Shown here: positions 1-56,276 of the stretch, piece after piece | How positions within the stretch are numbered: position 1 is the stretch's first letter | Layout: every line of letters starts with the position of its first letter | Source of the DNA: Membranipora membranacea | Lineage: Eukaryota > Bryozoa > Gymnolaemata > Cheilostomatida > Membraniporidae | DNA length: 64,000 bases | NCBI GenBank assembly: GCA_914767715.1 | Contig: OU612066.1 | Location: 18,140,283 to 18,204,282, forward strand | Reading direction: 5' to 3' | Program-made: the position numbers and the translations under genes | Notes under the pieces: model-generated | Database searches by the model: none | What the model saw: only the letters and a program-made list of their open reading frames with translations | What the model was told of the DNA's origin: nothing

Positions 1-343
1 TGCTAGTACTGGATGAAGTCTATATCTATCTATATATCTAAATTTGATTTGATGTAAAAGCTAGGGACATTATAAATAGGCTCAACTTAACCAATAAAAG
101 CCGATAAAAAATACCCACAACATTGAAAACAGAGCACTTATGACAGAATAGCCCTGAACCTAAAGATCTCAGTTTTCAGACAGAGACAGAACTTGCAATT
201 TTAACCCGCATTCTTTTAACCCTGGAGATGAGGTATAAAGGTAGAAATAATACAGGAGATAGGAGAAAGATAATAATATGTAAACAATTAATTGATCAGT
301 GATGTGGAGTCTTTTTGCCTCTTAACATGCGAGTCACACATAC

Positions 344-1485
344 CTGGATACTCGAGCAGTCGATGCAGTCTCGTAGCTGAGATTATTGTTAGAGACTTCT
401 CCAGTCACTCCACACCACAGTACGAATAGAAACTACAAACAATGTATCATAGTCAGTACTTTAAGGGTACTTTAATCAGTTAAAGGGTTCCAAACAATTT
501 CTCATTGATTAATCGCAGACAGTCCCTTCTGCATAGGGAAAAAGACAAAATCTAATTCGGATGATTATTCAGCCAGAATTCTTGTGAAGCATTACTCCCA
601 TCAGGAACTTAAACTCGGCTAAAATAGAATACCACAGAGCAGTTACCTGTTCCTGTTATTATTTAGCCTGTGCTCTAACATCATAACAGCAATGTCTTGG
701 AACCTCCCCTAAACTGAAGTGTTACCAAGCTAAGAGTCAGCAACTACTTTGAGTTTTGCATTGCGTAATGCACAAAGCTGATGGTACCCAGCAAATTATT
801 CACTACCCATTAATGCATTGCTGCAAAACCTTGGTTGCCCTTTCATAAAGTTCTCATCGATTGATAGCAGATTGCACATTATGCATAGGGAAAAAGACCG
901 AATCAATATCGTTTGATTATTCAGTGAGAATTTTTTTTAAACATTTGATCCATCATGTAAAATTATGCTGCTCAAAATCAACTAATATGGAACCACACAC
1001 AGCAGTTTCCTGTTCCTGTTAATTTTAGCCTGTGCTCTATCATTATCACAGCAATGTCTTTGATCCTCCCCTAAACTGAAGTATAACTCAGTCAAGAGTC
1101 AGCAACTACTTTGTGAGATTTGCATTGTGTAACTCCCTGGTCATACACAAAGCTGATGCTGCATAGATCATTCTTTACTACCCATTTATGCATTGCTGCG
1201 AAACCCTGGTTGCCATTTAAGATGCAGTCCATCATAAGTAAACTGATGAGGCTTTGCCAGACCTTGAAATGATGTCATCCTAAACTTGAATTAGTGAAAT
1301 ATAAATTTGATTAATCCTCTGTGCCTTCTATCAGCCACTTTGACTCAGTTGATATTAATGAGATAAATGACTCTAATCAGTCGCACAGTTAGAGCATCTT
1401 ACTTTTGTAAGATAAAAAATGAATGCAATGATAACACAACTACGATAATGCCTACCTGGAAGGTGTTTGCTACACTCCATATCAT
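344..1485 (-). CDS. R0: signal-peptide exons 1-2 of a receptor gene running off the left edge
   Basis: This is the 5' end of another copy of the R receptor family; exons 3-6 would lie left of base 1. Exon 1 is 1456-1485 and encodes MIWSVANTFQ, ending at CAG before GTAGGC. Exon 2 is 344-432, opens after a TTTGTAG acceptor with FLFVLWCGVTGE and ends in phase 2 before GTATGT. Joined in phase 0 they give a good signal peptide: short polar start, hydrophobic core FLFVLWCG, then a polar, Asn-rich mature start. The same two exons recur at R1, R2 and R4, and exon 1 alone at R3. Intron 1 carries a roughly 0.36 kb tandem repeat. Intactness of the rest of the gene cannot be judged here. Confidence 0.75.
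498..1210. repeat. Tandem repeat of about 0.36 kb in R0 intron 1 (two copies)
   Basis: Two diverged copies of one unit, starting near 498 and 853. Each runs through a 'gcatagggaaaaagac' core, 'cctgttcctgtta', 'tagcctgtgctct' and 'acccattaatgcattgctgc'-like blocks. The homologous intron of R2 (26,471-27,530) has about three partial or whole copies, so copy number varies between paralogues. Confidence 0.75.
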
Positions 1486-2097
1486 TCTGATTATTGTTAT
1501 CAAGTCAAATGAAGAAAACTTGCTGTTTCTGTATTGTAGCGGCTTTACACAAAGCGTGTGACAAACGCTATACTCAAAATGCTTGAACAATAGAATCGAT
1601 CGACGTTTTATACAACCTCTAGGCATAATCCTTATCTTTGAGCCACCACAACTCTGCGCATCTTTTGCAAAAACTTACAAAGCCTTCAATCCTCTCTTTA
1701 AATGTAAATATTGTGTTCAAACTAAACTAACGAACTCTGATTGGGCGTCAGCTTCAGTATTACGCTTTTGCCATAAATATATTAGTTTGTGTAAAGGTTG
1801 ATGAATTTTGCATTACTACGTCAATACTTTCATTAGTATGCAAAAAAATCAAGAAGACCCTTGTCCGGTTTCGGGAGAGGATATGATATAGTTTGAGACC
1901 AATCTCCCCGAAGAACAGGTATTTGACACCCATCCAAGGTCTTCAAAGACCCTAGGGCATCTTTTGATAATTGCTGACTGAGAAGACGGATGACTATACT
2001 TCCAGTTGGTTGAATATGGGATTTGAATGAGATTTTAGATATGATTAGATAGATGTGATTTGAGAGACGTGGTGTAAAGTGTTTTACTTTTTAGACC

Positions 2098-2103
2098 TTT
2101 ATT
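2098..2103 (-). promoter_or_regulatory. Polyadenylation signal of S1 (AATAAA on minus strand)
   Basis: AATAAA lies about 36 nt after the S1 stop codon. The same signal follows the stop in S2 (12991-12996), S3 (28675-28680), S4 (37956-37961) and S5 (50215-50220), at about 36-40 nt. This conserved 3' end supports the assigned last exon. Confidence 0.7.
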
Positions 2104-2138
2104 ACAGTCAAACTTGATTTATGGAGAAAAACTGTATC

Positions 2139-5100
2139 TTAATGCCAACAAAACCAAGTATCTCTTTTACACGAATCGGTGGCGGTAAGCCTCAGTTTTG
2201 GAAACCTGTTTCCGAAAGCACAGACTGCACTCTGCTTTCCTCCACCTGTAAATAGAGTAGGCAATGTATTATAAACGATATTACAAATATATTTTAACTT
2301 ATGACATCAATTAGCCCATAAAATGATAATATAAATTGACAAGAATTTTATCAAAAACTTTTCTATCTCCCCCTATCTTTCTATCAGTTTGATGCTATGG
2401 AAGAAATGTATGTTGAGTTTCTGGGTGGTCATAATTGGCCAAGTTCTGTTTTGGTGACGGTTATCGACAACAATACAACAATTACTCTATTTATAGCTTA
2501 CTGTGGTGTTTGATGAGTCTGAATTCTCCAAGTCCACCAACACAGTAGAACTTTCCATAAGGATCATGTATGTTTTGGACCTCAAACACGTTATCATCAC
2601 ACATTGATACAATTGGTAAAGGCTTTTCTCTGCTCGGCTGAAAGAGAATTAAAAAGAAATTTCATGATGTATGGTTTCGGTTATCCAACCCTTTCAAAAC
2701 CATGAATGTATGTATGTATGTACCTTTATGATCTCAGGGTCATTGAGAAATAAAACGCTAGTCTGCCTGCATTAAAAATGATTAATAAAAAATGCTAATG
2801 ACTTAAACTGTTAATGATAATGTTTGAGACCATACTCTCTGAAGAACTGGTGTTTGGCAGGGAATGGATTATTTTGTTTATTCAGTAGATTTGTTAAGTG
2901 AAAAGTGTAAAAAAGTATATAGATGTTTGTAACTAGAATATTCCTTTTGTAGGGCATCACAGCTTGGAGAACAGCACAAAATGTCCGCAAATTTCTTCCC
3001 ATTTTTGATCCATGTTAAAGTTTGGAAGATCCATACCCAATACATGCTTACCGTTGCAATAACCTTGTAACCAGATGGAGCTTCTGTCAATTGACCAAGA
3101 GAGTACATTGAATTTGAATAACCTCCGACCCATATTTCATTGTAAATGTGTATGATAAAGAAAAGTCTGTTATCACCAGGTAGTTCATACATATCAAAGC
3201 TTAAAAATTCATGTCTGCTCTCTAAAATAAGAGTAATTAATGATGTTTAAGGGTCACTGTACAATAATGGATTAGTAGAATAAATCTATGCTCTAGTATG
3301 AAATTGTTTTTGTTACTCCTGTATACTGAACATCAAAATACTTGAATAGTTTCTTCATCCGTATGCCGTCAAATGCGAGTTGATCCCACAAAATTTAAAC
3401 CTCTCAACATTATGTCAATGCTTCATGTGAGGGTTTAAATGAAACTCATCTTACACTGTTTATGAAATTGATCTAGATTTTACTTAATAACGAAAGAAGA
3501 AAACTAAGATTAGATTATAATAAGGACAAATTGACTGCTTTTGGCATTTCAGGCAAGAACAAGACAAGAAGTGATAAATTTTCATGTATTAGTCGATTGG
3601 TGGTGGTCTGTAGTAAAAGGTTGCTAAAAACTTAATTATTTTATTTACCATATCTCGGAGGGTGAGTTTCTGTTAACAATATAAACTCTTTGGATACTTC
3701 ATCGAAGGAGGCTGGGTCACTAGAGTAATCATCATCCCATTTTCGAATCCTTTTGTAGCTTGTTATTCTTTCTTCACGTATTCTTAGTTCAGGACAAGCA
3801 TCGGAGAGGGCTGTCAATATACAGTATAAGTTAAATAACTCAAACTGTGAGAAAAACACTGTCTAGCCTGTTCTTTCTGCAAGCCAAATTACCTCAACCC
3901 ATTGAAATGTCTTGCCTTGTCTCATGATGGGGGGGGGGAGTGGTATGAGACCATAATCACAAGCGAACAGGTGATTGACACCTTAGTTCTCGAAGACCAC
4001 TGGACAATTTTGATTACTACTAATGTTAGAAGGATGAAATTGATCTGAGTTTTGTGGCTTGTGGGTAGGGAGAAGCCAGGGTAAAGCTCCCCCTCATTGA
4101 AAGGCAGTATTCAGTAAATGGCTATTGGATGACTATGAATGAATCAATTTTGGTCCTTAGTTTAAAAACTGCAACAGGAAAAATACTTAGTCATGTTCAT
4201 GGTAAGAATTAACAGCCAGCACTTACATTAATGATTATAACAGATTAATTTTATCTTGCACCAACTAATATTTTAACTTTTGTTATCAAAGCAGGGATTT
4301 AGGGCCTTTTTGCTGTTCTAACAAGAAAATTAAAAATAAATTAATTTAAAACGCATGCTGTCATTGGGTATAGATTTCTCCTTCCAAAAATATGATCTTT
4401 TTCATTTGTAAAATGGTTAATAGCCGATTAAATGCGCAATCATCTATATGTAAATCAATCCAATGAATAATGTCATTTGAAAACACAACATGTACATCAG
4501 TTTAAACATTGTTGCAAACCTGGAATAGAATGTTTCCTCAATACCAACACTATTTGAATAGTGGAGCGGGAAAGCTCTGCAGGTCCTTTCAAACTCACAT
4601 CGGGGAGCAACTATGATGTTCACACCATTTGGCGATCAAGTCATTGGTAATTTTTTTCTATGTTCTACTACCCTTAATTAACAATGAATTCCTTGTCAGC
4701 TTACGCTTATGAGTAAGTGTCCTGGCGCATGGAATCATTTATGGCTAGCATAATAACAGAGCTTTTTGCTAATGATAATGATAATATCATTTGAAAGCGC
4801 AATCTGAAAAAAGGAATATTACTCCTATACCAAGTTGTTGGCATTGGTTGGAAGGGAAAGCCTGCAGGTCCTTTCCATGTCAGTTTAAAGGGACCCCAAT
4901 CACCCAAACATCTGTTTTTTGCGCAACCCTTTCTTGACATTTCTGTTTCTCATCATTTCTATTTGTCATGGTTTGCCGAGGCTTCACCAATCAAATCACT
5001 TGTTTGTACACCTCAAAAACTCACAAGTTTAATATGAACACCATGATGTGGCATTACAAGTAATATGGTGTACTGAAAATAAATCTATGAAGCCATACTG

Positions 5101-5358
5101 TACTATAAGGCTGTTTTCTCAGATTCACACTAGCTTCTAATTATTTACCTGCAGTCTAATATCAAGACAGATCCCGATAATTTTGTTTGTCAGAGACTTT
5201 TTTATAAACTACGATTTGGTAACAATTAACTAACTAATCAGTGCAGGCTTTTTGAACAAGTTTCAAAAGAAATATTCTCACAATTTTTGTATTCAATGAA
5301 TTACATACTTACCTAATATTGCTATATAGTAAAGAAGAAATTCTCTCTTAGAAGGCAT
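2139..5358 (-). CDS. S1: secreted Cys-containing protein of unknown family, five exons, 206 aa
   Basis: Coding exons in order are 5313-5358, 3649-3810, 3052-3221, 2502-2637 and 2139-2245. They sum to 621 nt, with GT-AG junctions and matching phases (1, 1, 0, 1). Exon 1 begins MPSKREFLLYYIAIL, a signal-peptide core; exon 2 opens ALSDACPEL just past the likely cleavage site. Exon 3 holds the most conserved block (DMYELPGDNRLFF ... WVGGYS ... APSGYKVIAT), exon 4 has MCDDNVFE and DPYGKFY, and exon 5 ends DSCKRDTWFCWH. Oddities specific to this copy are a 6-nt in-frame insertion in exon 3 (two extra residues, GGYSNSMYS) and an extra Cys in exon 4 (FYCVGG where the paralogues have FYGVGG or FYGVGS). 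No membrane segment follows the signal, so secretion is likely. I do not recognise the family. R0 starts about 650 bp downstream in the same direction. Confidence 0.8.
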
Positions 5359-6939: not shown

Positions 6940-9900
6940 CTGCAAACGAGCACTTGCAGCCATCTGAGCACTTTGACTTGTGACAGGATGGTATTCCAAA
7001 TACATAAGAAAAAAAAATCAGTGATTTTCTGATGTTGGGTCCTGTGAAGTAGAAGGTTATGGGTCCTAATAATATGCGAGCAAGAAGAACCAAGATCAGT
7101 TTGCATAGTCAATGTTGTGGTATCATCAGTATCAACCTACTTATTGAGGAGCAGATGATCATGATATAGGGAACTTTAACCATTTCCACGTTTTTCCACA
7201 ATTTCCAATAAATATCAATCTCAACAAGATTAATCCTAATGATCAAATTTATTGTTCATATGTACATGGAGGATAATTCACAGAGTGTGTGAGAGGTACC
7301 AGCTAAGTCTCAATATGTATACGGTTAAATCATGAAGCAGAAAAACAGAAACTGCAAATTTTATAAAATGAAGGAATAAAATATAAATTATAAATTCAAA
7401 TAATAAACCATAATAAGCAAAATAAAATAATAACAAATAGTTAATGATTAAAAATAAAAAAATTCAAAAATTTATTCAGAATAATAAAAAAAAGAATTAT
7501 ACAAAGGCAATTTAGGCAACTTCAATCTGCTTGCAGCGTACATCCCAAAAATATAGTTAATGAGAAAAAAAGATTTGGCATTGAGGTTCTTGAGATCTAG
7601 AGCTCATAGCTCTGATCTTCAATCTTTTATGGATCTTTTGCTAATACAGTAACAGTACTTGTTTGGCGTTCATAATTTGTATGCAGTTTCAACTCCATTT
7701 TATCAGAAATGACAGTCACAAAAATATTTCCGTGTAGATGTGATGCCTGCTTCGTTTCGCTCTCCTCTTTTGCATCAACATCCAGTGTCTCCTTTTGAGC
7801 CAAAACTTCTCTTTGGTCAATGACGTACACATCATGTGCGTACTCCGGAACACCAGATTCAGTAATACAAGTTTGGTTGTCACAGAGCACATACTGATTT
7901 TCAATTTGCTCCTCAGGATGATTTGACATAGTATGGGTCATTTTTTTGAGTGACAGACGGCTTACAATCATATTCTAAGGCCTCAGGTACAGGGAGAAAA
8001 CTGGGGTTATCACAATACGGGTCTTCATTTTGCATGTTTCGCTGTCGAGTAGTTTGGAGGGACAGTCGTGGTCTTGGACGGGGTGGCGTTGCCTGAGGAT
8101 TGACAAAAAAAAGGTAGGGTCTGTTTATTTGCTGATCAAACCTCGGTAGTGACAGCCGTGGTCTGGCACGGCGAGGCGCTACAAGAGGCCTACCATCTTT
8201 TACTGCTGATAATTTTGTTATCGATCCTTCCTTGTAATAGTCACGGACATCAGCATAGCAGTAATCATCAGATTCTGAGGCACCATTCTGAGCTCGATGT
8301 ACCTGTACTGTGGACTCTCTAGACTGTGGTAGAGGAGGAATTGACCTGTCTTTGAAGACTCTTATACAGTCAGACCTTTCCACACCTGTTTCAGCTCTAC
8401 TCTCTTCAATGCCGGTCACTCCTTCATCTTCTGTTTCCCTGTTATATGAGCTCAGCTCCACTTCTGAAAACATTGACAAAGTGAGTTAGTGCTTTGTTGA
8501 CTATGTGGTGACTTTGTGAACTTTTTAATCATCAGCCCATTAGTGTGTTGGCGACTTATAATATAAATCGCGCTCACCCTAAGGTGCCGATGAATAATTA
8601 TTTTTATGATTAATATTTTCGCAGATTTGTCCTCCCATACCTATGAAAAGATGACTTCTTATCATGAATGAAACCTTGTGGTTACATTTCATCCTAGTGT
8701 TTAGCGCCCTTTGTTTGTAAATTCATCGCGTGGATTTGGAATACTCTTCATGAAAACAACAAATATATATGTCGTCAACCACCGGTATGTCAATTACATG
8801 CAACTACTATTGATAAAAAACCAAAGCATCGTCATTCTATAATTGACTTTCCATTGCTATCACCATGCGCAAAGTTGATATTACATATTCAGGGTAGAAT
8901 TTCAAAACACTTAGTTGGTATACAAGTCAATATAAGAATATTACCACACATTTACTGTAACCAACCTTCAAAAGTACTGACAGAGTCGGAGGGATTCCTG
9001 TGTGTCCTCTGAGTTGCCTTATTTAAAGTTCGTCTTTTCATGTTTCTAGCGCGGAGGCAGAAAACAGTCAGGGCTATTCCCGATAAACAGATTATCACTG
9101 ATCCTACAGCACTCCCAACTATGACACCTGAAAACACAATGACACATGTAAGTTCATATTACTATTAGCTGTTCTATGATTTATCAGTTCGCATATCATC
9201 AAATTGCCTGATGATGATTGTCAAATTTTTAACCATCATGCAATACTAACCTGGATTTGTATTTTCCCATTTCCAACAATAAATGGAATATCATTCTTTT
9301 TTAAGCAATAGAATGGATTGAGACACCGCTTGCCACTTGTCAGAAGATTAAATTTTATACAGCCTAAATAAATGGTGCATCAGAGAATTTATATCACCAT
9401 GCATGGTATAATAAGATATACTACACTTACCTGTGTCTGTGGAGCCTTTGTTTGGAGAGGTACTGGTTGAAATATTAGATACTGTCGAGTTGTCATTATC
9501 ATAGAAAACGCTGACTGCAAAATCAACAATTTCATCAATGAACATAACTCTAATAAATTGATGTTCTCTTCAAAAAAAGCGCAGACACTACTTTCATGAA
9601 ACTTCATATTAGCAAAACTGTTGCAGATTGAAATGAGTTTGCAAAGATATTTATACTAGCATAATTTAAACTGAGTGGATTTTCAACATTTTTTATGATG
9701 TTATAGTACAACTAGCATTTAAAATTTTCAGGGATTTTCCCTTGAATTCTCCCTGCATTATATGCTTGCTTAAAAATTCAAAAAAAGACTCAACTTCTGT
9801 AACAATGACTTACCATTATACTCGAGGGTGATAATCTGACCTTGTCCTCTTTCAATAGCGTACAAGTTTTTTCCTCTGGTTTGATAATCGGCCAAAACTG

Positions 9901-11311
9901 GTACAAGCAAGTTCTGTTTCTGGTCACACTCAGTATGATTGCAGGGCAAACTGGTCACTCCCTCTGCTACCATGGTGTAGTCTCCAGTATCTGTGTTGAC
10001 AAGAAGCATCTGTTGGGCTTTGGTTACACAGAGCAGTGCCTTTTCACCAACACTAACAGCTCGCAAAATTATACCAGGATTGCCATTTAGACCGACATGG
10101 GTGATCTCTGATCTCAAAAAGTCCACTTGACTGACTGTAACGTTTGTGTTGCCTTGAATTGTAAACGCCCCGGAGAAATTATAGTTTAATGCCATCGCAG
10201 ATATGTTTCCAAAAGAGCTCATGAGATGGAATGGGGTAGTTGAGAAGTTATCAGAGAGGTTAACTTGGTAGATTGTTGAGGCAGCAGTGTAGTATGCAAG
10301 ATTACTGGCAGAATCTACAGAAGTTGGTCCAAAAGGAATCGATTCAAGGTGACTGCAGTTTAACGTTGTTTGATTTGGTTGGTTGTCGAAGATTCGGGTA
10401 AGTTGATTGTTTTGTTGTCCTTCTCTCCAGTGAAATGAATCTTCACTGCCGTTTCTTCTCGGACAAGAAATGATTCCTTGCCAATCTGTTGGAAGCTTTC
10501 GATTTCTTCATTGGTTGTCAGGATCCACCTTGACTTTTGTTGTGTTTTGCTCCTACTGTAAATTTCTGTACCCAGTGAGAAGTAGAACTTGGCATCAAAA
10601 TATCTGTCCGGCTGAATTGCTTTGATGCGCCTGAATTCTGTCAAGTTAACATCCGATTTGTGGGTAACTTCAAGGTTCAGAATCATGCTGAAAAGTTACA
10701 AAGATTACTTGAATAATTCTCAAAGACCTATGGATTATACAGTAAGGCAGTTACTTAGGACAAATTTATGTAAGATTTGCATGGTGACAAATCCAAAGTT
10801 CCTTCGTGGAAGAATGATTGATGGTGTTAAGATTTGATGGCACAACTCCAACACCTTGCTATGAGAGGAAATGAGATTAAAGTCATTTCTAAAAAAAAAT
10901 TTTGCACTTGATGTGTGTGTTTGTGTGTGAGTTAAGGCTGGTCCAGACGACATTGGGATGTCAAACACAGTATCTGGAAAGATACAAACTTGAAAGATAC
11001 TGTCCCAGACTCGCTTTTATTGCAGGGATTGCATCAATTTCATGTTCATATCGGCTATCCGGGATTACTGTCTGGGAAAATGTGGACCAGCCTTTAAGAT
11101 TGCTATGTGATTCAAGTACACAGGCTGAAATACCTGAAGTACAGCTTCTCTGCATCGAAATATATCATATCACAAATAGCATTATGACTACAAGAGCTCA
11201 GCGCTATTTTGCAGCAAACCCATGACACCATGAACCATCTAAAACCATGGAGTCATTTCTCCTCGATCCCCTATTACTTGCATTTTGTTTAACATTGAGT
11301 CTGAGAACAAG

Positions 11312-11379
11312 TCAGTTATGACAGAATAGCAGTGACATAATATTATTATATTATGTCACTGCTATTCTGTCATAACTGA
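11312..11379. repeat. Perfect 68-bp palindrome (32-bp arms, 4-nt loop) in R1 intron 2
   Basis: Arms 11312-11343 and 11348-11379 are exact reverse complements, with loop TATT. The arm contains 'ttatgacagaatagc', which exists once, not inverted, in the paralogous region near 136-155 and 26,158-26,177. Confidence 0.9.
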
Positions 11380-11690
11380 TAGGTGAACCGACAGGAGAGC
11401 TGGAGACTACAAAATCGTGACCTCAATATATCCCAATAATATTGCTCATTATATACCCTACTTCAGTAGCTATGCCTGGTAAAGCTAGATTAATACTAGA
11501 AATAAACCAACCAACCTGAATAAACTAACTCTGTGGTTTTGGTACATGAGTCAGCATTTTGAAACAGACACAAAGAAACACTGATACGGGTGATTTTACA
11601 TCGCAATTTCAAATCATCGATAGAAATATAAATAACATTGTATAGGCAACTCCAACCTTTTCAGATACAAACCTCTTTGATCAATTTACC

Positions 11691-11717
11691 CAGGGAGTTT
11701 GGTTTTTAAACTCCCTG
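11691..11717. repeat. Short perfect hairpin in R1 intron 2
   Basis: Ten-base arms cagggagttt and aaactccctg surround a 7-nt spacer. The aligned site in R4 (near 48,505) has no such insertion. Confidence 0.7.
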
Positions 11718-12990
11718 ACATACCCCTTGAATCAGTTAAGGGGCAACATATAGTGAGTAACAACCATTTCATCATGACTTGAATAATAACCACCGCCGAG
11801 GTCATCATCAGTTTATAAACCAACTTCATTTATTGAAGGTCATGAGGATTAGGGTCAAGATAATACAAGAGATAGGAGAAAGTTAATGCGTTAAATATTC
11901 ATCAATCAGTTACACAGAGTCGGTTTGAAGTCAAAAGCAAGTTACATACTGGGATACTCGAGCCGTCGATGCAGTTTTGTAGTTGAGACTATTGTTAGAG
12001 GCTTCTCCAGTCAATCCACACCACAATACGAGTAGGAACTACAAACAATACATAATAGTAAGTTAATCAGTTTTATTGACTTAGTAAGTTAATCTTAGAA
12101 GAAAGAACATAAGTAATTATTATAAACATATGTAAACACTAAGTTTGTGAAACAAAAATAAGGATTGGTATTATGCCAAAAGGGTTAAAAAAAATTATAT
12201 GCAATCCAACATAGAATGAACTGAATGAAGCTTGGTCAGTCCAGTTATCCAAAATTGGAATAAGTAAGTTTTAATCAGATTAATCCGCTGCGCCTTCTAT
12301 CAGCCATTTGAGACTTTGATTGAGTTGATATTAATGAGTTGATGAATTAATCTAATCAATCACACAGTTAGAGCAAGGAACAACAGCGTTACTCATTGGT
12401 TAGAGCATCTCACTTTTGTCAGATGTAAACATAAATGCAATGATAACACAACTACAATAATGCCTACCTGGATGATGTTTGCTACATTCCGTACCATTCT
12501 GCTAATTCTTACTGTCAAGGAAGTCGAACTAAGAAAAGCCTGTCGAGGCAACTTTACGTGAACCATGTAACAAAAGCTATACTCAAAATGCTCAAACAAT
12601 AGAATCAATCAACGTTTTATACCACCTCTAGGCATGATCCTAATGTTTGAGCCACCACAACTCTGCTCATTTTTTTGCAAGAACTTATAAAGCCTTCAAT
12701 CCTCTCTTTAAATGTTAATATTGTGTTCAAACTAAAATGAAGAACTCTGATTGGGCCTCAGCTTAAGTATTACGCTTTTGACATAACTATATTAGTTTGT
12801 GTAAAGGTTGGTGGACTTTACATCACTACGTCAATACTTTCATTAGTATGCAGTAAAAAAAGCAATACCCTTTTCTTGTCTTTGGAGAGGATATATGATA
12901 TCGTTTGAGACCAAAGTCTCTAAGAACAGGTATAGTATAGGATGACTATGTCCAAAACAGTATAGTTGTCAGTCAAGTGTGATTTGAACC

Positions 12991-36734: not shown

Positions 36735-36929
36735 TTGTGATTAACTATGTATGAAACTTATAGAACTAGTGATGGTTTACAGAAAGAGACACTGATACGG
36801 GTGATTTTATATCACAATTTCAAATAATTGATAGAGATCTGAATATTGTATAGGCAACTCCGACCTTTTCAGATACAAACCCCTGTGGTCAATTTACCCT
36901 TTAGATCAGTAAAGGGGCAACATATTGCG

Positions 36930-40900: not shown

Positions 40901-41675
40901 GCTCTGCATGTCACTTCCAACTCAAATTATGAAGCGACTTTAATGTTCTCACCATTCGGCGATGAAGCCATTGGTAATTTTTTTACCTTAAAGATCTCCT
41001 AGCAGGGTTCCAAACAAAGACATATCAGCAACACCATGTCGTGGGCTAGAGTCTTTTACATACCTGTTCAAATTTTCATTGCGTTTGAACAAATAGGGAC
41101 CCCGGATAGGGACCCTTTGGCAGCTTCTCAAATACACCCATGTCTATCAGCCTCCTCAAAAACATGCCTCAGTTGATGTAGGCTTTTGATGATGCGTGTT
41201 GTTTCCTCATGATTATATATGCCATTCATACTGAGTTCCTATTGACTTATAACTAAGCATAAGTCATGTGACCTTAGGGCTATAATGCCTGGTTAAAATC
41301 AGATATAATTTGATTATTTCATTATCCAGAATGTGTTGGTGAGTTTGAAATGAGAATACAGACATAAATGTTGAGGATTAAATCGACTGATGCATTAGAA
41401 ATACCATAGTTAAGTGCAAAATTCAGTTTTTAATGTGAGTTGATAAGCCATAATGTCACATGACTTTTGCTAAATTATTAGCCGATAGGAACTCAGTATG
41501 AATGGTATATATAATCAGGAGGAAACAACACGCATCATCAAAAGCCTTCATCAACTGAGGCATTTTTTTGTCTCAAGTCTCAAAAGAAATATTCTTACAA
41601 TTTCTGTATTCAATGAATTACATGCTTACCTAATATTGCTATATAGTAAAGAAGAAATTCTCTCTTAGAAGGCAT
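37997..41675 (-). CDS. S4: secreted protein of the S family, five exons, 204 aa
   Basis: Exons are 41630-41675 (MPSKREFLLYYIAIL), 40015-40176 (ALSDACPELRIKEE ... RIRKWDIDYPSD), 39490-39653 (DMYELPGDNRLFF ... GYKVVTT), 38370-38505 (PSRESPLPF ... MCDDN) and 37997-38103 (GGKQSAVCAF ... DTWRCWH). Sum 615 nt, phases consistent, no stops. The 3' half resembles S1/S3 while exon 2 matches S5, which suggests exchange between paralogues. Intron 3 holds a LINE fragment (38,658-39,220); intron 1 holds an inverted-repeat element ending about 55 bp from exon 1. R3, a pseudogene, is downstream, so this S gene is intact beside a dead R. Confidence 0.8.
38658..39220 (+). mobile_element. 5'-truncated LINE 3' end in S4 intron 3
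   Basis: A plus-strand open frame to 39,119 encodes the RT C-terminus: CNSRLYLMKQLKTMGMN, SYACPVWFQF, EKLEKVQRYATRMM, HPLNNRIRPN. This domain order is typical of LINE reverse transcriptases. It starts within the domain and has no catalytic box. The 3' end is an A/C-rich tail ('aaataaacaaacatcaaac'). The aligned intron of S2 (near 13,711) has 'ttttcccttttgatatttta' with no insert. The frame is fully open, so the insertion is fairly recent. Confidence 0.85.
41157..41572. mobile_element. Inverted-repeat element (arms about 115 bp) in S4 intron 1
   Basis: The left arm starts 'atgcctcagttgatg' and the right arm ends 'catcaactgaggcat'. The arms share 'gatgatgcgtgttgtttcct' and 'ccattcatactgagttccta' as inverted copies. 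No coding capacity, so MITE-like. A clear target duplication was not found; the left flank also differs from S5, which suggests an accompanying deletion. Confidence 0.75.
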
Positions 41676-44205: not shown

Positions 44206-47200
44206 CTAAAGCTCATAGCTCTGATCTTCAATCTTTTGTGGATCTTTTGCTAATACAGTAACAGTACTTGTTTGGCGTTCATAATTTGTATGCAGTTTCA
44301 ACTCCATTTTATCAGAAGTGACAGTCACAAAAATATTTCCGTGTAGATGTGATGCCTGCTTTGTTTTGCTATCCTCTTTTGCTACAACATCCATTGTCTT
44401 CTTTTGAGTCAAAGCTTCTCTTTGGTCAGTGATGTACACATCATGTGCATACTCCGGAACACCAGATTCAGTAATACAACTTTGGTTGTCACAGAGCACA
44501 TACTGATTTTTCATTTGCTCTTCAGGATGATTTGATATTGGTAAGGCCAACTGTGGTGTGGGATGGGGTAGCTTGTTCGCTGGGTTACCATGTCCTAACA
44601 CTGTTGTTTTGGATGATTGGTGGCTATGGCCTAGTATCTCAACATAGTATGGGTCATTTTTTTGAGTGACAGACGGCTTACAATCATATTCTAAGGCCTC
44701 AGGTACAGGGAGAAAACTGGGGTTATCACAATACAGGTCTTCATTTTGCATGTTTCGCTGTGGAGTAGTTTGGAGGGATAGTCGTGGTCTTGGACGGGGT
44801 GGCGTTGTCTGACGATTGTCACAATAAGGGAAGGGGCTGTTTATTTGCTGATCAAACCTCGGTAGTGACAGCCGTGGTCTGGGACGGCGAGGTGCTACAG
44901 GAGGCTTCTCATCTTTTACTGCTGATGATTTTGTTATCGATCCTTCTTTGTAATATTCACGAACATCAGCATAGCAGTAATCATCTGACTCTGAGGTAGC
45001 ACTCTGAGCTCGATGTACCTGCACTGCGGGTTTTCTAGACTGTGGTAGAGGAGGAAGTGGTCTCTCTTGAAAGACTCTAACACTGCCAGATCTTTGCTCA
45101 CTTGTTTCAGCTCTACTCTCTTCAATGCCAAGCACTCCTTCATCTTCTGCATCCCTGTTATATGAGCTGAGCTCTACTTCTGAAAATATTGACAAAGTGA
45201 GTTGGTGCTTTGTTGACTATGTTGTGACTTTGTGAATTTAATTCATCAGCGCATTAGAGTGTTGGCGACTTGTAATATAAATTGTGCTCACCCTAAGGTG
45301 CCGATGAATAATATTTTCATGATTAATATTTTAGCGGATTTGTCCTCCCATACCTATTGAAAAGATGACTTCTAATCATGAATGAAACCTTGTGCATGTA
45401 GCGGCCTTTTTTTGTAAATTCATTGCGTGCATTTGGAATACTCTTCATGAAAACAACGAATATATATGTCACCAACACAGCAATTCATGCAACTATCATT
45501 AACGAAAAAATTAAAACATCATCATTATATTATTGACTTTCCATTGCTATCACCATGCGCAAAGTTGATGTTACATATTCAGGGTAGATTTTTAAAACAC
45601 TTTGTTGGTATTCAAGTCAATATATTATATTAACACACATTCACTGGAACCAACCTTCAAAGACATTGACGGAGTGGGAGGGATTTCTGTGTGTTCTCCG
45701 AGTTGTTTTATTGGAAGTTCGTCTTTTCATGTTTCTAGCGTGGAGGCAGAAAACAGTCAGGGCTATTCCCGATAAACAAAGAATCACTGCGCCTACAGCG
45801 CTCCCAACTATGACACCTGAAAACATAATGACACATGAACATTCATATACCTACTAGCTGTTCTGTGATTTTCCAGTTTGTGAATCATGAAGTTGCCTGA
45901 TGACTTTTGTCTAATTACTAACCATCTGCAATGCTAACCCAGATAGGTATTTTATCATTTCCCACAATTAATGGAATATCATTCTTTTATAAGCAATAGA
46001 ATGGATTTAGACCCCGCTGGCCACTTGCCAAACGATATTTCATATAGCCTTAGTAAATAGTGTATCAGGGAATTCACATCGATGTGCAGGATATTTTAAG
46101 ATATACTACACTTACCTGTGTCTGTCGGGTCATTGTTTGGAGAAGCACTGGTTGATATATTATTAGATACTGCCGTGTCGTCATCGTCGTAGAAAACACT
46201 GACTGCAAAATCAACAACTTCATCAATGAACATAAAGCCAATAAATCAAGATAGTAGTTTTGCACATTGAAATGAGTTTGCAGAGATGTTTATACATGCA
46301 TAATTTAAATTGAATGGGGATTATTCACATTTTTTATATAATGTTAAACTGCAGTTGGCATTTTCCCTTGAATTCTCCCTGCATTATATGCTTGTTTAAA
46401 AATTCAAAAAAAGACTCAACTTCTATAACAATGACTTACTATTATACTCGAGGGTGATAATCTGACCTTGTCCTCTTTCAATAGCGTACAAGTTTTTTCC
46501 TCTGGTTTGATAATCGGCCAAAACTGGTACAAGCAAGTTCTGTTTCTGGTCACACTCAGTATGATTGCAGGGCAAACTGGTCACTCCCTCTGCTACCTTG
46601 GTGTAGTCTCCAGTATCTGTGTTGACAAGAAGCATCTCTTGGGTGGCGGTAACGCAGAGCAGTGCCTTTTCACCTATACTTACTGCATGAATAATTCGAC
46701 CAGGATTCCCATTTAGAATGACAGGAGTATACTCTGACCTCAAAAAGTCCACATGACTGACTGTGACATTTGTGCGTCTTTGAATTGTATATACCCCTGA
46801 GAAATTATTGTTTAATGCTATCGCATCAATGTTTCCAAAAGAACTCATGAGCTGAAATGGGGTAGTTGAGAAGTTTTCTGCAGTGAGGTTAACTTGGTAG
46901 ATTGTTGAAGCAGCAGTGTAATATGCAAGATTATTGGCAGAATCTACAGAAGTTGGTCCGAAAGTAGTCGATGAAATTTGACTGCAGTTAAGGGTTGTTT
47001 GATTTGGTTGGTTGTCGCAGAAAGATTTGGGTAGGTTGATTGTTTTGTTGTCTTTCTTTCCAGTAAAATGAATTTTTACGGCGGTTTCTTCACGGACAAG
47101 GAATGATTCCTTGCCAATCTGTTTGAAGCTTTCGATGTTTTCATCGGAGGTCAGGATCCATCTTGACTTTTGATGTGTTTTGTTCCTACTGTAAATTCTC

Positions 47201-49598
47201 TTATCCTGTGAGTAGAAGAACTTGTCATCAAAACTTCTGTCAGGCTGAATTGCTGTTATGTGGTAGAGATCTGTCAAGTTAACATCCAGTTTGTGTGAAA
47301 CTTCCAAGTTCAGAATCATTCTGCAAAGATAAAAATATTACCTAAACACACTCATACACATCCCAGACGTTTGACATGTAAAATCTACAGACATATGTCG
47401 GCCCAAGGAGTTAAAGTGATTAACTCCTTGGTCGGGCAACTCTCATTAATTAATAATAAATAACCATAACATTTAAAACAGACCATTTATGACATAATAG
47501 CCCTACAGGGGGAACCAACAGAAAAGCTGGAGACTACAAGATCATTTCTCCCAGCATATCCATATAAGATTGACCATAATCTGATTCATACTTAAGAGTT
47601 ATCTAGCCTCTTCAGCAGCTATGGTTGATTAAAATGGTTGATTAAAATCAGGTGTCTTATCACTCGAAGAATAGACGGCGAAATATAAGTGCTAGGTCGC
47701 AATAGCTGCGCCAGGTTGCTCTCAGTTTGCAGGCAGGTCGGAGCACACCTGGGGGCCAACCAAACCCTACTAGTCAATGGACTGTAGTGGGATTGGAACC
47801 CATGACCTTCAGTATTTTCACGCTGAAGGACTTCTCGGCCTATTGGCTAAGAACAAAGTGTCACTGCCAATGGCCGATTAGTGCCAGTTCAGTTTTGGCA
47901 GCTTGCTGCATATTTATGATTAGGAGGTCCTCTATGGCCTCACCTCTAGGATGCATTCTAGTTTTCTAGAATGTACCACATTCTCAGTGTGAGGATTAGG
48001 GCACCTTGCGTCCCTCTTTAGGGGCAGCCCAATCTTCTGTTTCTTAGCAAACAGCAGGACCGGCACTCTAACCAACTGTGCCGCTTCCTACTCCTATGGC
48101 TGATAAAGTTAGAGTAACTTAAATCTTGTTGAATTCTTATGGTCGTCCTTTGAACATTAATGAAAGGTCTGTTTCTTATCATAACACAAAGCACAAACAC
48201 AAAACACAAATACAAGAAGAACATTGACTCTGTGGTTTTAGAACATGAGCCAACATTTTGAAACAGGAACAAAGACTTTTGAACCAACTGGACATCAAAT
48301 TTGGGTTATGTAGAACACAGTTGTCTTTGGATATACCCACCCTCCCTTGTGATTAGCTATGTACGAAACTTATAGAACTAGTGATGGTTTACAGAAAGAG
48401 ACACTGATACGGGTGATTTTATATCACAATTTCAAATAATCGATAGAGATCTGAATATTGTATAGGCAACTCCGACCTTTTCAGATACAAACCCATGTGG
48501 TCAATTTACCCCTTAGATCAGTAAAGGGGCAACATATAGTGAGTAACAAACATTTCATCATGACTTGAATAAAAACCACAGCCAAGTTCATCTTTCTAGA
48601 AACCAACTTCATTCATTAAATCGGATGAGGTATTAAGGTCGAGATAAAACAAGAGATGGGAGAAAGTCAATATGTTAAATGTTCATCGAGCAGTTACACA
48701 GAGTTTGTTTGCAGTCACACGCAAGTAACATACCGAGATACTAAGGCCGTCGATGCAGGTTTGTAGTTGAGATTATTGTTAGAGGCTTCTACAGTCATTC
48801 CACACCACAGTACGAGTAGGAACTACAAACAATAAATAATAGTAAGTTAATCAGTTTTATTGTCCTGGTTAGTTAGATTTAGATCAAAATATATAATAAA
48901 TAAATATCTTTCATTTTCATTTTTGAGCCTATTGAGTAAACACACCATGTTTGTGAAATAAAAACACAGATATTGGTATTGTGCCAAATTAAATTAAATG
49001 AAATTAATATGCAGTCCATTATAGAATGAACTGAATAAAGCTTGGCCAGTCCTTGCAATGGTTTGTCATCAACCCCAGTTATCCAATTTTTGATTAAGTA
49101 AAACATGTTTCAGATTGACCCTCTGTGCCTTATATTAGCCATGTGGGACTTGGATTGAGTTGTTATTCACTTTGGTCCCATGTTGCGATTTCGTAAGGAT
49201 TTCGGGAGTTATCGATCCATGGAAATGGCATTAAAGTCAACTTCCGATAAACCGATCCACAATTTTTGACGCGAATACAGATACCGCACTGAATCACGCC
49301 ATTCCAATTGCACACAATGGCTTCAAAGGGCATTGACGCGGGTGACCTGGGTTCAAGTCCCGGCCGCGGCAAATGTTTTTCATGGTTTTTCCATCATGGA
49401 AATGGTTAGCATTCATAACTCGAAATCGGAGTGGACCACAAATTCGATGCATGGAACCATAGTGAGTAAGGAGATAAAGGACTCTAATCAATCACATAGT
49501 TAGAGCTTCTCACTTTTATCAGATTGAAAAGAAGAATGCAATGATAACACAACTGCGATAATGCCTACCTGGATGATGTTTGCTACATTCGGCATCAT
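44206..49598 (-). CDS. R4: intact type I membrane receptor with SH2/SH3-ligand tail, six exons, 740 aa
   Basis: Exons: 49569-49598, 48734-48822, 46440-47320, 46116-46202, 45655-45816, 44206-45179; 2223 nt, phases 0, 2, 1, 1, 1, all GT-AG. Residues 1-25 are a signal peptide split over exons 1-2 (MMPNVANIIQ + FLLVLWCGMTVEA). Residues 41-333 form the ectodomain, with about ten NxS/T sites and strand-like repeats such as NNLAYYTAASTIYQVNL and KNLYAIERGQGQIITL, perhaps a beta-propeller (guess). A Ser/Thr/Asp stalk follows, then one helix at about 364-387 (VIVGSAVGAVILCLSGIAL) and a basic stop-transfer. The tail (388-740) has RPLPPLP 456-462 (class I SH3 ligand), PVAPRR 510-515, Y486 ADV, YCDN at 535 and 566 (YxN), YYVEI 594-598 and YAHDVYITD 660-668. 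No kinase domain. Probable tyrosine-phosphorylated signalling receptor; ligand unknown. Confidence 0.85.
47690..48095 (-). repeat. tRNA-derived SINE in R4 intron 2, split by a later insertion
   Basis: Same repeat as 36,290-36,455. Its two halves (to 47,831 and from 48,056) would be continuous without the 47,832-48,055 insert, as the uninterrupted R3 copy shows. Confidence 0.6.
47832..48055 (+). mobile_element. U2-snRNA-like 5' head element, 224 bp, with 5-bp target duplication
   Basis: It opens with 'ttctcggcctattggctaag', which differs at one base from the conserved U2 snRNA 5' segment as I know it, then 'aacaaagtgt'; after that it no longer matches U2. It is flanked by aggac on both sides (47827-47831 and 48056-48060). 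The empty site is visible in R3 near 36,411. A dispersed U2-derived SINE or a retro-pseudogene are both possible. Confidence 0.65.
49185..49450 (+). repeat. tRNA-derived SINE-like repeat, R4 copy
   Basis: Contains 'gacctgggttcaagtcccgg', a T-arm-like B box, with the same flanks as 36,930-37,200. Confidence 0.6.
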
Positions 49599-50256: not shown

Positions 50257-53200
50257 TCAATGCCAACAATGCCATGTATCTCTTGTACACGAATCGATTG
50301 CAGTAAGCCGTAGCTTTGGAAACCTGCTTCCGAAAGCACAAAGTACACTCGTCTTTCCCTCGACTGGAAACAGAATAAGCAATATATTACAAACAATAAT
50401 GTAATTATATAATCAAGTAGCCCATAAACTAATCTAAATTAATCAGAATACTATCCAAATGTTATGTGAAAGTGTTTTCTTTCTCTCCAGATCTTTCTAT
50501 TAGCTTGATGCTAATGAAGAAATGCATGTTGAGTTTCTGACTTCAAGTGATAAGCTATAGGTAAATCAGCTTTCTACATAGCAAGGTTTTCGGTGATGGT
50601 TATTGACAACGATACAGCAATCACTCTATTTATAGCTTACTGCGTCGCTGGGGGCCGTCGGGCTGGGGGCCGTCGGGCGGAGGGCAAAGTCTGGGGGGAT
50701 CAGACTACTTACTGCGGTGCTTGATGAGTCTGAAATCGCCTAGTCCACCAACACCGTAGAACTTCCCATAAGGATCATGAATATTTTGGATCTCAAACAC
50801 GTTATCATCACACATCGTCACAAATGGTAAAGGCTTTTCTCGGCTTGGCTGGAAGCAAATGAAAAAGAAATTCAATAATTTATGGCCATCTTATCTGGCA
50901 ATTTAAAAAAAATGTTTCTCTCTTCATTGATACTTTTTCTTTTTTCATGTTTTCATCACAGAAACATTCGCGTCTGTTTTAGGAAAATATGAGATTGGAC
51001 AGGAGGCTGTGACTGGGAGAATGCGGAGGCAGGAAAGGAATTAAATAGTATGGCCGTTAATTCAGAAGATTTGTTAAGTCAATAAAAGTGTAAAAAAGAA
51101 CATTGATTTGTTAATTTAGTACTAGAATATTCCTTTTGTAGGGCATCACAGTTTAGAGAATAGCACAAAATGACCTTCCATTTTTAAAATATGTTAAAAT
51201 TTAGAAGATCCATACCCAGTACATGCTTACCGTTGCAATAACCTTGTAACCAGATGGAGCTTCTGTCAATTGACCAAGAGAGTACATTGAATAACCACCG
51301 ACCCAATTTCGATTGTAAATATGTATGATGAAGAAAAGTCTTTTATCACCAGGTAGTTCATACATATCAAAGCTTAAAACTTCATTTCTGCTCTCTAAAA
51401 CAAAAGAGTCATTGATGAAGGGTCAGGGCTTACTGTACAATAGAATGCTTTCAAATATTTGGTCACTTTTCTTCTGATTGTTTTTTTACCAAGTCACAAG
51501 TTGATCGCCCCAAAATTTAGTCCTCTCAACATTGCTTCATGATTCTTGTGAGGGTTTGAATAAATCTCATCTTACACTGCTTGTGAAATTGATCTAGATT
51601 TTACTTAATAACGAAAGATGAAAACAACTAAGGTTAGAATATAATGAGGACGAATGGATTGTTTCTGGCATTTGAAGCAAGAACTAGACAAGTAGTGATA
51701 AATTCTCATGCATCATTTGGTTGCTGTAAGCTTTATTATTGTATTTACCATATCTCCGAGGGAGAGTTTTTGGTAGCAATATAAACTCTTTGGATACTTC
51801 ATCGAAGGATGCTGGGTCACTAGGATAATCAATATCCCATTTTCTAATCCTGTCGTAGCTTGTTACTCTTTCTTCTTTTATCCTTAGTTCAGGGCAGGCA
51901 TCAGAGAGGGCTGTCAAATAACATTACTTATGAATAGATGCGACTGAAACTCTGAGACCAACACTGTCTAGCTTGCTCTTTCTGCAAGCCAAATTACCCA
52001 ATCCCCTTGCCTTGACTTGTCTCATGTGGAGGGGGGAGTAGTGGCATGAGATCATACTCTCCAGAGAACAGGTGATTGACACCTATAGTTCTCGAAGACC
52101 ACTGGACAATTTTGATTACTACTGATAGACCACATCCTTGATGTTAGAAGGATGAAATTGATTTTAGTTTGTGGCTTGTGGGTAGAGAGAAGCCAGGGTT
52201 AAGCTCCCCTCATTGGAAGGTAGTATTAAATAAAAGGCCATTTGATAACTATCAATGAATCCAATTTGGTCCTCAGTTTAAAAAACTGCAAAAGGAAAAA
52301 TAAAATAAGTCGTGTATCAAACTCATTATGGTGAATTTCACAGCCAGCACTTCGGTTAATATTTATAACAGATTAGTTTATCTTGCACCCACTAATTTTT
52401 TAACTATTATTATCAAAGCGGGGATTTAGGGCCTTTTTGCTAACAAAGAGTGTAAATTGATTTAAAACGCAAGCTTTCATTGGGTATTGCTTCCCCTTTC
52501 AAAAATGCGATCTTCTTCAATACTAAAATGGTTAATTGCCGATTAAATCAGATCCATATGCAACGAATCCAATGATTAATGTCATTTGAAAATGCAATAT
52601 GAAATCAGTTTAAACATTGTTGCCAACCTGGAATAGAATGTAACCTCAATAGCAACACTGTTTGGATAGCAGAGCGGGAAAGCATATACCTACCAACTCA
52701 AGGTATGACTAGATTGGTAATTTCTTTACCTTCATCTCTATTTTCCACTACACCTATTGTGACAAAGCCATCGGGAAAGTGATTTACCTTGATCTTAATC
52801 TTGCACTATCATGTTTTGTTAGCCAATAGATCAGATTATGTGGGATTGACTTAGCCTTGAACAAGGCCAGGATTGACCCTATTTAGCAAGGAATTCCTTG
52901 TCAGCTTATCACACAGAGTTAGTGGCTGTGACGTTTGGAAGCATATGGCTAGCATAATAACAGAGCTACTACTTTTTGTTAAAAGCCCTGTAACAAATGG
53001 AAAATGGATTATGAGCATGTGCTCCTATTGGTATGACTTTTAGAGGATATAATAAGCATATCCTGGAGATGAGCCATTTCTCAATCTCAGCACCCCAATC
53101 ACCCAAACATCTGTTTTTTACGCAACCCTTTATTGTCATGTCTGTTTCTCATCATTTCTATTTGTTGTGGTTTGCTGAAGCTTCACCAATCAAATCACTT

Positions 53201-53559
53201 GTTTGTTCACCTCAAAAACTCACAAGTTTAATATGAAGACCATGATGTGATGCATTCCAAGTATTATGGTGTACTAGAAATCAATATATGCAGCCTTACT
53301 ATACTATAAGGCTGTTTGCCAAGATTCACACTAGCTTCTGATTATTTACCTGCAGTCTAATATCAAGACAGATCCCGATAATTTTGTTCGTCAGAGACTT
53401 TTTTATAAACTACGATTTGGTAATAATTAACTAACTAATCAGTGCAGGCTTTTTGAAGAAGTCTCAAAAGAAATATTCTTACAATTTTTGTATTCAATGA
53501 ATTACATGCTTACCTAATATTGCTATATAGTAAAGAAGAAATTCTCTCTTAGAAGGCAT
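50257..53559 (-). CDS. S5: secreted protein of the S family, five exons, 204 aa
   Basis: Exons are 53514-53559 (MPSKREFLLYYIAIL), 51749-51910 (ALSDACPELRIKEE), 51231-51394 (DMYELPGDKRLFF ... NWVGGYS), 50713-50848 (PSREKPLPF ... MCDDN ... KHR) and 50257-50363 (GKTSVLCAFGSRF ... DTWHCWH then TGA). The sum is 615 nt and phases agree. Signal core is residues 7-17; cysteines are at 21, 137, 178, 195 and 202, an odd number, so one may be free or pair between chains. It is the partner of intact R4, 0.66 kb downstream. A 63-bp GC-rich insertion just inside intron 4 duplicated the donor region. No family recognised. An S-R ligand-receptor relation is inference from co-duplication only. Confidence 0.82.
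50645..50707. mobile_element. GC-rich 63-bp insertion with 9-bp target duplication at a splice donor
   Basis: cttactgcg stands on both sides (50636-50644 and 50708-50716). The empty site is in S2 at about 13,422-13,431. The insert contains 'gggggccgtcgggc' twice and resembles the element at 14,979-15,025 in reverse. Because the target includes the exon 4 donor, two GTAAG donors now exist. Confidence 0.85.
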
Positions 53560-53992
53560 TTTAGATAGTGCTATGTGAAGACCTGCTGAACTGGGTTGAA
53601 CCGTTAAAATGTAGCAAGTAGCTCAAATTCAACGTATCAGTTTTTTTAAATAAAGGGTGATAAAGATTCATTGTCCTTTCTTCAGTACATTGGATATGGA
53701 GTTTAAAATAAGGACTATATTAGACTTCATAGTTTGTTTGGTACTTTTCTTGTTTTAGTATCCTTTGTTAGCTTTTGAGGTGATTAAAAACCAGTTGAGG
53801 TCTGTAGTTTCTGGCAAAATCAGATAATTTCTCTCATGTTTTCCACAGGTAGGTGAAGCTAATGTTTCAACAAACAGTCGTAAAACTTGAAAAGGAAATG
53901 TCCTTAGTAATGGTGCAAAGTTTAAATTTTTTTCTAAATGGCTTTTTGATCATTTTCTTGATGGTTGATGCAGATAGGAAAGTGAATGTTTA

Positions 53993-54178
53993 TTACCTGT
54001 CTAGAACTACTAATAACTGGTCATACAGAAAAAGCATATCTGATTCACATAACCTCAGTGTTTTAGCCATGAGAGTAATGTGAGAATGGCCTGTGGTAAG
54101 GATTACAAATTGCCTGCGGTAAGGAGGAATTATTGGAGGCTTAAATGTAGGAACTTGTGGCCTGACAGATGGGAGCAT
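53993..54178 (-). other. Zc copy 5: Pro-rich conserved open frame
   Basis: MLPSVRPQVPTFKPPIIPPY ... TTGHSHIT ... ESDMLFLYDQLLVVLDR then TAA. Open and close to the 33,553 copy, about 430 bp upstream of S5 exon 1. Unknown. Confidence 0.3.
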
Positions 54179-55254
54179 TGCTTTTTTGCCAGGATTTCCT
54201 TAACAAAGGGCAGGTGAGCTGTGACCAAGAGGTAGATCTTGTGACGAATGCATAAGTACATTCTGAAGATTAGTTTCTATCAACATCTGCATACAACAAG
54301 CAGTGGTGGTACCACTCAACATCACGCAGGTCATCAGCTACAAACCATAAATCATGGGTTGTTTATGCAATCCTTTGCTCTCATGTGTCTCATTATGCCT
54401 CCTTGCAGTGGATTACCATAATTTAACATGTTAGTAGTCTATAGGAGGATAAACAAATAGCGTTAGTACTATTATTAAAATAAAAAACAGGTCCTGAAAT
54501 TCCTATAAAATTGTCCCTCCAGGATAACTGAGCTGCTGCAATGTTAAACAATACCAGTAAAAATAAACAGCCTACAATAGAACCAAACAGCAAGTTACCA
54601 ACAAATATTCAAGAATAGATTGACATGTCATGCATCGGCAGCATTTGTAGTTTAATTTAGAGTAAACATTAGTGTCGCATCGCACCTTATTTATTATCAG
54701 CTTTATGGCAGCTTCATCATTTTCAATACATTGCCCCAGCAATTTCACACCTAATCTCAACGAACATATTTATTGGCTCAACATTAACTTTGAAGAGTCG
54801 ATGTTGTATTTATAGAACTAAACCAGGAAAAAAACGTTTTGTATCTGGATAATTGTTAACGCAGCCATTCCTATATTGTCACAGCCAGGGAAAGGTTTTT
54901 TCAGAGATTAATTGCAAATTAATCCTAAATAGTAAGCTGCTTATCGACCCCCACAGTGTATTGTTATAAGCAGTTTTTTGCTAGTATACGTAAAAACGCA
55001 GGTGAATTTTGTTCATACCCTCCCATTGGGTAATTCCATGGACTTAATTCTTAGCCTATGGGTAATTCTCATCCTAGAAAACAAAGGGATTGTCATCAAA
55101 GATTATTCATTTCACAGTTAATCCTCTATTTAACATCTGCAATTACGTAAATGCTACTTGTAATTTCCTTCTTTTTTATTGTTTGAGCAATAGTCGTAGG
55201 CTCACCTCAGGAGCTATAGAATAATTAATTTTGCTCACTTAGCTGTTGTGGTTT

Positions 55255-55722
55255 CTATAAATTCTTCGGTCTACTCCAGGTACTAGGATGTGATTTCTCT
55301 TCCTTGTCCAGCGTAGTTTTATGGTTGTGCTTGCACATATTCCGGTGCTTATGGCGATTGGCATTACTCTTAACATGTCGGGCGGGCAAGATACTCGCGG
55401 CTCAGACTAATCGCCAGTACGTTGACTAAAATAGTGTTCTACACAACCTCTTTGAAAAAAGGAATCATACTTACACTGCCCTCTTCAACTGTCTACTGAG
55501 CCACAGGAATGAAGTTTGTGGGGGGACGAAAATTTTGTGACAAAATTTGAGCTTTGTTGTGATGTGTTGTGTTGTGACCAACTCGCCACAAATTCCCATG
55601 CACAAAGTGATTGCCTGAATACACATTATTGATTGAAAAGGATGTACCATGGCTCTCCAAAGAGTCGGCAACAATAACAAATTTGATTGATTTGAAAACA
55701 GAAGGAAGACCGAGAGTAAATC
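55255..55722 (-). pseudogene. Z5: copy of the Za-Zb fragment with a one-base deletion
   Basis: Za (about 55475-55722) reads FTLGLPSVFKSIKFVIVADS and on to QNFRP, then loses one base against 18.4 kb (cccctcc became cccccc), shifting frame before the HKHHSCGS segment. Zb (55255-55400) is open for 48 codons including the stop. If Za-Zb is coding, this copy is broken. Confidence 0.35.
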
Positions 55723-56276
55723 CTTAAAATTTATTCAGGAGACCTTTAGAAGTGGATAATGCAGTGATAATATTATTTATTTTTTGCCAATGTAAGTAAC
55801 AAATTCATTATGCTTCGTTGTTTGAGATAGCACCCACTATTTAATCCATAATAAGACAAAGGATAGGTAGGATTGCAATGATATGTTACAGCTCTTAAAT
55901 TGCCCTCTATAGCCTACCTAACAAAGTTAAACTTATATTGTTGGAGAAAAAATTTCATTTCAAGTAAACATTCAAGAAAATAATGCTTTGAAAATCACAC
56001 CATCTATTATGAGCTTTATAATCCAACATCTTATTTTTACAGGTGATTTTATGGAATCAAATTTTACGCAAAACAAACTATCACCCACAACAGACAAAGT
56101 CGTTCATAGGATCACTGTGACCTTTTTAAAGTTGAAGCCTAAATCAACATTTTTTTCCCCTTTTTCTCATAGTTAATTCAGGTTCAATCCAAATAGATCC
56201 TGCTAATTTATTGAAAAGCTGGACACAGAGATGAACCTGATATCAATTCTGTTCATCTTCAAGGTTGAGTTTTACA

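Follow-up and report, generated by a model that had tools for sequence, protein, structure and literature searches.

Does a gene for a secreted protein that stays beside a gene for a membrane receptor through repeated duplication form a functional pair with it? The question is raised by a window of 64,000 nucleotides (nt) from the bryozoan Membranipora membranacea (contig OU612066.1 of assembly GCA_914767715.1, positions 18,140,283–18,204,282, forward strand). On its minus strand, five copies of a gene called here S, for a putative secreted protein, alternate with copies of a gene called R, for a candidate receptor (R1 to R4 and the partial R0). S is intact in all five copies, and R in one of the four copies lying inside the window. 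The sequence suggests that this is probably a birth-and-death array kept for S, in which R4, and perhaps R0, would be the surviving receptor in one or few copies. Ligand–receptor pairing of S and R is possible.

Organization of the array

Self-comparison of the window showed that repeated blocks extend over roughly its first 56.3 kb, with units that are 93–96% identical over parts of their length. The distances between the starts of successive S genes are 11.2, 16.5, 8.6 and 11.9 kb, and R exons with common splice sites come after every S. The order Z-S-R, which the initial annotation had described as recurring on this strand, was recovered for S and R; Z did not qualify as a gene, as no frame of at least 45 amino acids (aa) is kept in all five units. 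The exon counts, phases and polyadenylation signals that were said to be conserved are so for S in the five units, and intact R genes beyond R4 were not confirmed. Conserved spacers were found only in part, the S introns being variable in length (e.g., 873–1603 nt for intron 1). The coordinates of the genes are listed in Table 1.

S genes

All S genes have five exons, traced by alignment, and GT-AG introns, with the phases 1, 1, 0 and 1 identical in the five copies. An AATAAA signal begins 36–40 nt past every stop codon. The N-terminus of S5, MPSKREFLLYYIAILALSDA, resembles a signal peptide by eye, and no N-glycosylation sequon was found in the mature S5 sequence. Without the signal peptide, S seems to be a secreted protein of about 185 residues, secretion being judged by eye.

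The S frames are open in all copies, with no frame-breaking indel. The ratio of nonsynonymous to synonymous substitution rates (dN/dS, NG86) is 0.25–0.51 in all ten pairs. By exon, mean dN over mean dS is 0.41 for exon 2, 0.51 for exon 3, 0.16 for exon 4 and 0.35 for exon 5; the value of 1.26 for exon 1 comes from 15 codons only. Each pair shows either no coding indel or a single one (6 nt, in frame); the intron rate would predict 3.8–19.7. In S5, a 72-nt insertion lies just past the exon-4 donor; the aligner had set it at the exon end, and hence it is not coding. The introns have 64–78% identity and 43–67 indels in nine of the ten pairs, while units 1 and 3 share 95% identity with 12 indels. 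Since the introns have drifted and yet all five frames are open, time enough for the decay of S had passed. Judging from these substitution and indel patterns, S is evolving under purifying selection.

R genes

R4 is encoded by six exons, in phases 0, 2, 1, 1 and 1, and has the layout of a type I membrane protein, with a signal peptide, an ectodomain of about 330 aa, a transmembrane segment and a tail of about 350 aa. The signal peptide, MMPNVANIIQFLLVLWCGMTVEA, was recognized by eye and is split across exons 1 and 2 (30 nt and 89 nt), whose lengths and junction phase are equal in R4, R1, R2 and R0. A hydrophobic read-on from the first ATG (VGIIVVVLSLH) was considered as an alternative signal peptide and rejected as intron, because the 30-nt and 89-nt exons keep one phase in these four copies; the donor phase of the read-on differs among copies. 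The ectodomain carries ten N-glycosylation sequons in the 310 residues examined. The R4 tail contains 15 Tyr and 32 Pro residues, two Y-x-x-hydrophobic sites (YADV and YVEI) and two SH3-type proline motifs (RPLPPLP and PVAPRR). Because of this richness in tyrosines and SH3-type motifs, the tail would probably recruit kinases and adaptors. A pattern search of the R4 tail found no immunoreceptor tyrosine-based activation or inhibition motif (ITAM, ITIM), so the tail does not carry these marks of an immune receptor. R would be a receptor that crosses the membrane once, its ectodomain rich in sequons and possibly a beta-propeller, its cytoplasmic tail long. In R4 an AATAAA follows the stop at about 360 nt, and in R1 one follows the end of the tail exon at about 345 nt; the matching part of R2 has none on the minus strand.

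The other R copies carry lesions that differ from copy to copy, none being held in common (Table 1). Read in the R4 frame, the first stop in exon 3 falls at residue 108 of 291 in R1 and at residue 192 of 292 in R2. Exon 3 of R3 is open but shifted, its 2-nt insertion sitting in an A run, and exon 5 of R3 stops at residue 21 of the 40 remaining in the R4 frame. Comparisons of R pairs gave dN/dS of 0.35–0.69 in 14 of 15 region comparisons, the fifteenth having a dS of 0; for the two broken copies R1 and R2 the range is 0.35–0.58. These ratios indicate that R was constrained during a large part of its history before decay. Position 34269, where R3 is cut, is a deletion junction at which the membrane exon of R3 abuts the upstream sequence of S3.

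Table 1. Positions in the window of the S and R copies and of the Z core (all on the minus strand)
Feature	Position	Length and state	Coding exons	Remarks
S5	50257..53559	204 aa	53559-53514, 51910-51749, 51394-51231, 50848-50713, 50363-50257	AATAAA 37 nt past stop
S4	37997..41675	204 aa	41675-41630, 40176-40015, 39653-39490, 38505-38370, 38103-37997	Mosaic
S3	28716..33098	204 aa	33098-33053, 32179-32018, 29788-29625, 29214-29079, 28822-28716	Intron 2 holds a LINE remnant
S2	13036..16595	203 aa	16595-16550, 15327-15166, 14176-14013, 13563-13428, 13139-13036
S1	2139..5358	206 aa	5358-5313, 3810-3649, 3221-3052, 2637-2502, 2245-2139	One in-frame 6-nt insertion
R4	44206..49598	740 aa, the only intact R in the window	49598-49569, 48822-48734, 47320-46440, 46202-46116, 45816-45655, 45179-44206
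R3	34269..37340	Pseudogene		Exon 2 (second signal-peptide exon) and exon 6 (tail) not found; 2 nt added in exon 3; transmembrane exon 5 scrambled and cut at 34269
R2	22600..28073	Frameshifted		Exon 3 (ectodomain) and exon 6 (tail) have each lost 1 nt net, breaking the frame, besides in-frame indels; GC donor after exon 4
R1	7597..12497	Pseudogene		4-nt deletion in exon 3 (ectodomain); 107-nt deletion in exon 6 (tail)
R0	344..1485	Partial		Window holds exons 1-2 (signal peptide); the remainder would fall past position 1
Z core	53560..54560			Precedes S5; its flank, or possibly a promoter

Sequence exchange between copies

S4 is a mosaic, S5-like in its 5′ part and S1/S3-like in its 3′ part. Its breakpoint falls in exon 4 (38473–38448). 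Among 412 informative sites in exons and introns, S4 is S5-like at 192 of 304 before the breakpoint and at 7 of 108 after it, and none of 2000 shuffles gave a contrast as extreme. Consistently, dS between S4 and S5 is 0.066 in exons 1–3 versus 0.429 in exons 4–5. Unequal exchange or gene conversion has shuffled sequence among the copies of the array.

Family identity of S and R

The initial annotation had recognized neither ectodomain, and profile and PDB sequence searches bear this out, with no Pfam or PDB sequence match to S or R at an E-value below 0.009. The best Pfam match for S was DUF2701 (E = 0.0097), obtained with one of the five members; S5 had none. DUF2701 and DUF5396, which have no listed cut-offs, were taken as chance, and Cu-oxidase_2 (E = 0.025), DUF5947 and Trp_oprn_chp fell below the Pfam cut-offs. 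The PDB matches of S, namely CFAP251 (E = 0.017), Exotoxin 1/superantigen-like protein (E at least 0.095) and myosin heavy chain kinase A, were weak and were likewise taken as chance. The value of 0.017, the best for S, came from a query with one extra residue at the exon 2–3 junction; with a profile, the best value was 0.095. For R, the best PDB sequence match had an E-value of 0.24, and other R queries returned none.

Pfam searches of R returned DUF6923 (E = 0.024, a piece of R1, below the cut-off) and Mala_s_1-like (E = 0.053, one of six R rows), both of which we take to be propeller-like. Two structure predictions reached a predicted local distance difference test score (pLDDT) of 32 and 36. 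A Foldseek search with the R ectodomain model of pLDDT 36 placed 2yh3 (BamB) first among the PDB matches, with an E-value of 0.011. Of the 823 matches that this low-confidence model gave at E-values of 10 or less, none was at or below 0.001. Its top 50 matches include BamB, BT4663 and LRP6, presumably propellers, but also EF-P, IF5A and Tudor, which presumably are not. Self-alignment of the ectodomain detected no internal repeat above shuffled sequences (34 of 40 shuffles reached its score). The models and matches offer only a hint of a propeller fold, such as the six-bladed one of LDLR/LRP- or SMP-30-like receptors. Among bacterial or archaeal and viral contigs, pattern searches gave 49 and 11 matches to the R ectodomain, none of them confirmed; they covered this ectodomain only and are uninformative on animals.

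Evolution of the array and alternative explanations

A segment of two genes, S and then R, was tandemly duplicated at least four times, after which the extra R copies would have decayed separately. If so, selection within the window would have kept several S and not several R. Most likely, S would be a secreted signalling or defence factor with diversifying copies, and one or few R would remain as the working receptor.

Adjacency maintained through duplication had initially been taken as the mark of a functional pair. Retention lends this no support, as R is broken in three of the four window copies, with different lesions, and S is intact in all five. The alternation of S and R through the whole array, the constraint on the R copies before their decay and the position of the intact R4, which begins some 660 bases past the S5 stop, do speak for a dedicated ligand–receptor or soluble partner–receptor pair whose adjacency is selected, as in self-recognition loci. 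However, besides the unequal retention, segmental duplication alone accounts for the adjacency, and the two members are intact together in the S5–R4 unit only, not throughout the array as a linked recognition locus would have them; we consider such a pair unlikely. It is quite improbable that the array is ordinary segmental duplication, with S kept for dosage or not yet decayed and with no system common to S and R. This would agree with units that are 93–96% identical in parts and with the free decay of R, but the divergence of the S introns in nine of ten pairs shows that time for decay was available, and yet all the S frames are open. Finally, the R lesions might be sequencing or assembly errors, all R genes being functional. 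The net single-base lesions of R2 and the insertion in an A run of R3 would suit this explanation, while the 4-nt and 107-nt deletions of R1 and the missing exons of R3 do not resemble errors, and the five interleaved S genes have no such lesion, which makes it extremely improbable.

Several points weigh against an array kept for S with R4 as the main surviving receptor. Each of the two frame-breaking lesions of R2 amounts to one base net and may stem from an assembly error; with R0 lying mostly outside the window, the count of working R genes could be two or three. All dN/dS values, for S and for R, come from copies on a single haplotype, and gene conversion among these makes dN and dS less clear-cut. 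The propeller guess draws on Pfam E-values of 0.024 and 0.053 and on a model of pLDDT 36, with neither a significant fold match nor an internal repeat.

One may also picture an undescribed, lineage-specific animal recognition system, in which a diversifying repertoire of secreted S proteins, reshuffled by conversion inside exons, would signal via one shared, propeller-like R with SH2/SH3 docking sites; this we rate as rather unlikely. A bolder variant adds membrane-anchored forms of S, which could arise by splicing: S exons with a phase-1 end, exon 4 included, might join in frame to the phase-1 stalk and membrane exons of R. If S and R are lineage-specific, the array presents two unrelated genes duplicated as one unit and meeting opposite fates, a case in which passive adjacency can be told from functional pairing. 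The five S copies versus R4 offer a concrete test case for an invertebrate-like secreted repertoire without a recognized family.

Comparison with known systems

Birth-and-death families consist of tandem copies with gene conversion and intact members beside pseudogenes. The array likewise holds tandem paralogues, intact and dead copies and sequence exchange, seen in the S4 mosaic; it differs in that its unit contains two unrelated genes, of which only S is retained throughout. A literature search found no tandem secreted/receptor allorecognition match, and a looser one brought up papers that appeared unrelated, though both were too narrow to establish that the literature lacks such a system.

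In the allorecognition locus of Botryllus, 227 bp separate the genes fuhc-sec and fuhc-tm, which encode Ig domains, with EGF in fuhc-sec (PMC12065747). As with S and R, genes for a secreted and a type I membrane protein stand side by side. Unlike the Ig and EGF domains of fuhc, no such Pfam domain appears in S or R, and the fuhc-tm tail is short (PMC12065747), versus about 350 aa in R. The S-R pair is, moreover, tandemly repeated, with R decaying. The self-sterility genes s-Themis and v-Themis of Ciona are a linked pair for an extracellular-coat protein and a membrane protein (PMC7018956). The physical linkage of extracellular and membrane protein genes is similar to that of S and R, which differ in lying head to tail and in showing neither family in Pfam searches.

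Upstream flank of the S genes

The Z core is 94–96% alike in units 1, 3, 4 and 5 and about 80% alike between these and unit 2. Two points favour a coding Z: several short frames of 45–70 aa on both strands are common to the four similar units, as expected because the DNA there is 94–96% alike, and the gaps among units 5, 4 and 3 are multiples of three. On the minus strand, a TGA in unit 1 interrupts a 68-aa frame, and unit 2 differs from the other units by 19–21 indels. Z was rejected as a coding gene on account of this TGA, the unit-2 indels and the lack in unit 2 of any shared frame of at least 45 aa, and is best read as the flank of S. A longer Z block at 54381–56275 has its only full-length match at 17365–19236; a 105-aa frame of the latter (18370–18684) has no Pfam match, and a single-base gap throws its copy at 55.5 kb out of frame. 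In the four units, the upstream flank of S is more alike than the S introns are, which may reflect a conversion hot spot or a conserved promoter.

Neighbouring genes and repeats

The GC-content of the window is 34–45% in 2-kb steps. No tRNA was found in it with ARAGORN, and no Rfam match reached its gathering score. Remains of long interspersed nuclear elements (LINEs) occur at several places; together with a KLHL-type gene of several exons, they would by themselves suggest DNA of an animal. A broken LINE reverse transcriptase lies downstream of R2 (21136–22200, minus strand; RVT_1, E = 8.6e-09), and a fragment in S4 intron 3 (38583–39119, plus strand) resembles it by eye, with no Pfam match. 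The remnant in S3 intron 2 (30403–31122, plus strand) matches Pfam zf-RVT below the cut-off (E = 4.5e-05). The first introns of R2 and R0 contain local tandem copies of an element of about 300 bp (26463–27533 and 503–1218). Beyond the array, and divergent from it, lies a KLHL-like BTB-BACK gene of several exons (60790–64000, plus strand; the 5′ start, near 60790, is guessed), a handy landmark for locating the array in related genomes. BACK pieces were located in 62216–62449 and 63618–63905, and the BTB exon in 61373–61663 has Kelch-like protein 3 as its best PDB match (E = 1.3e-25).

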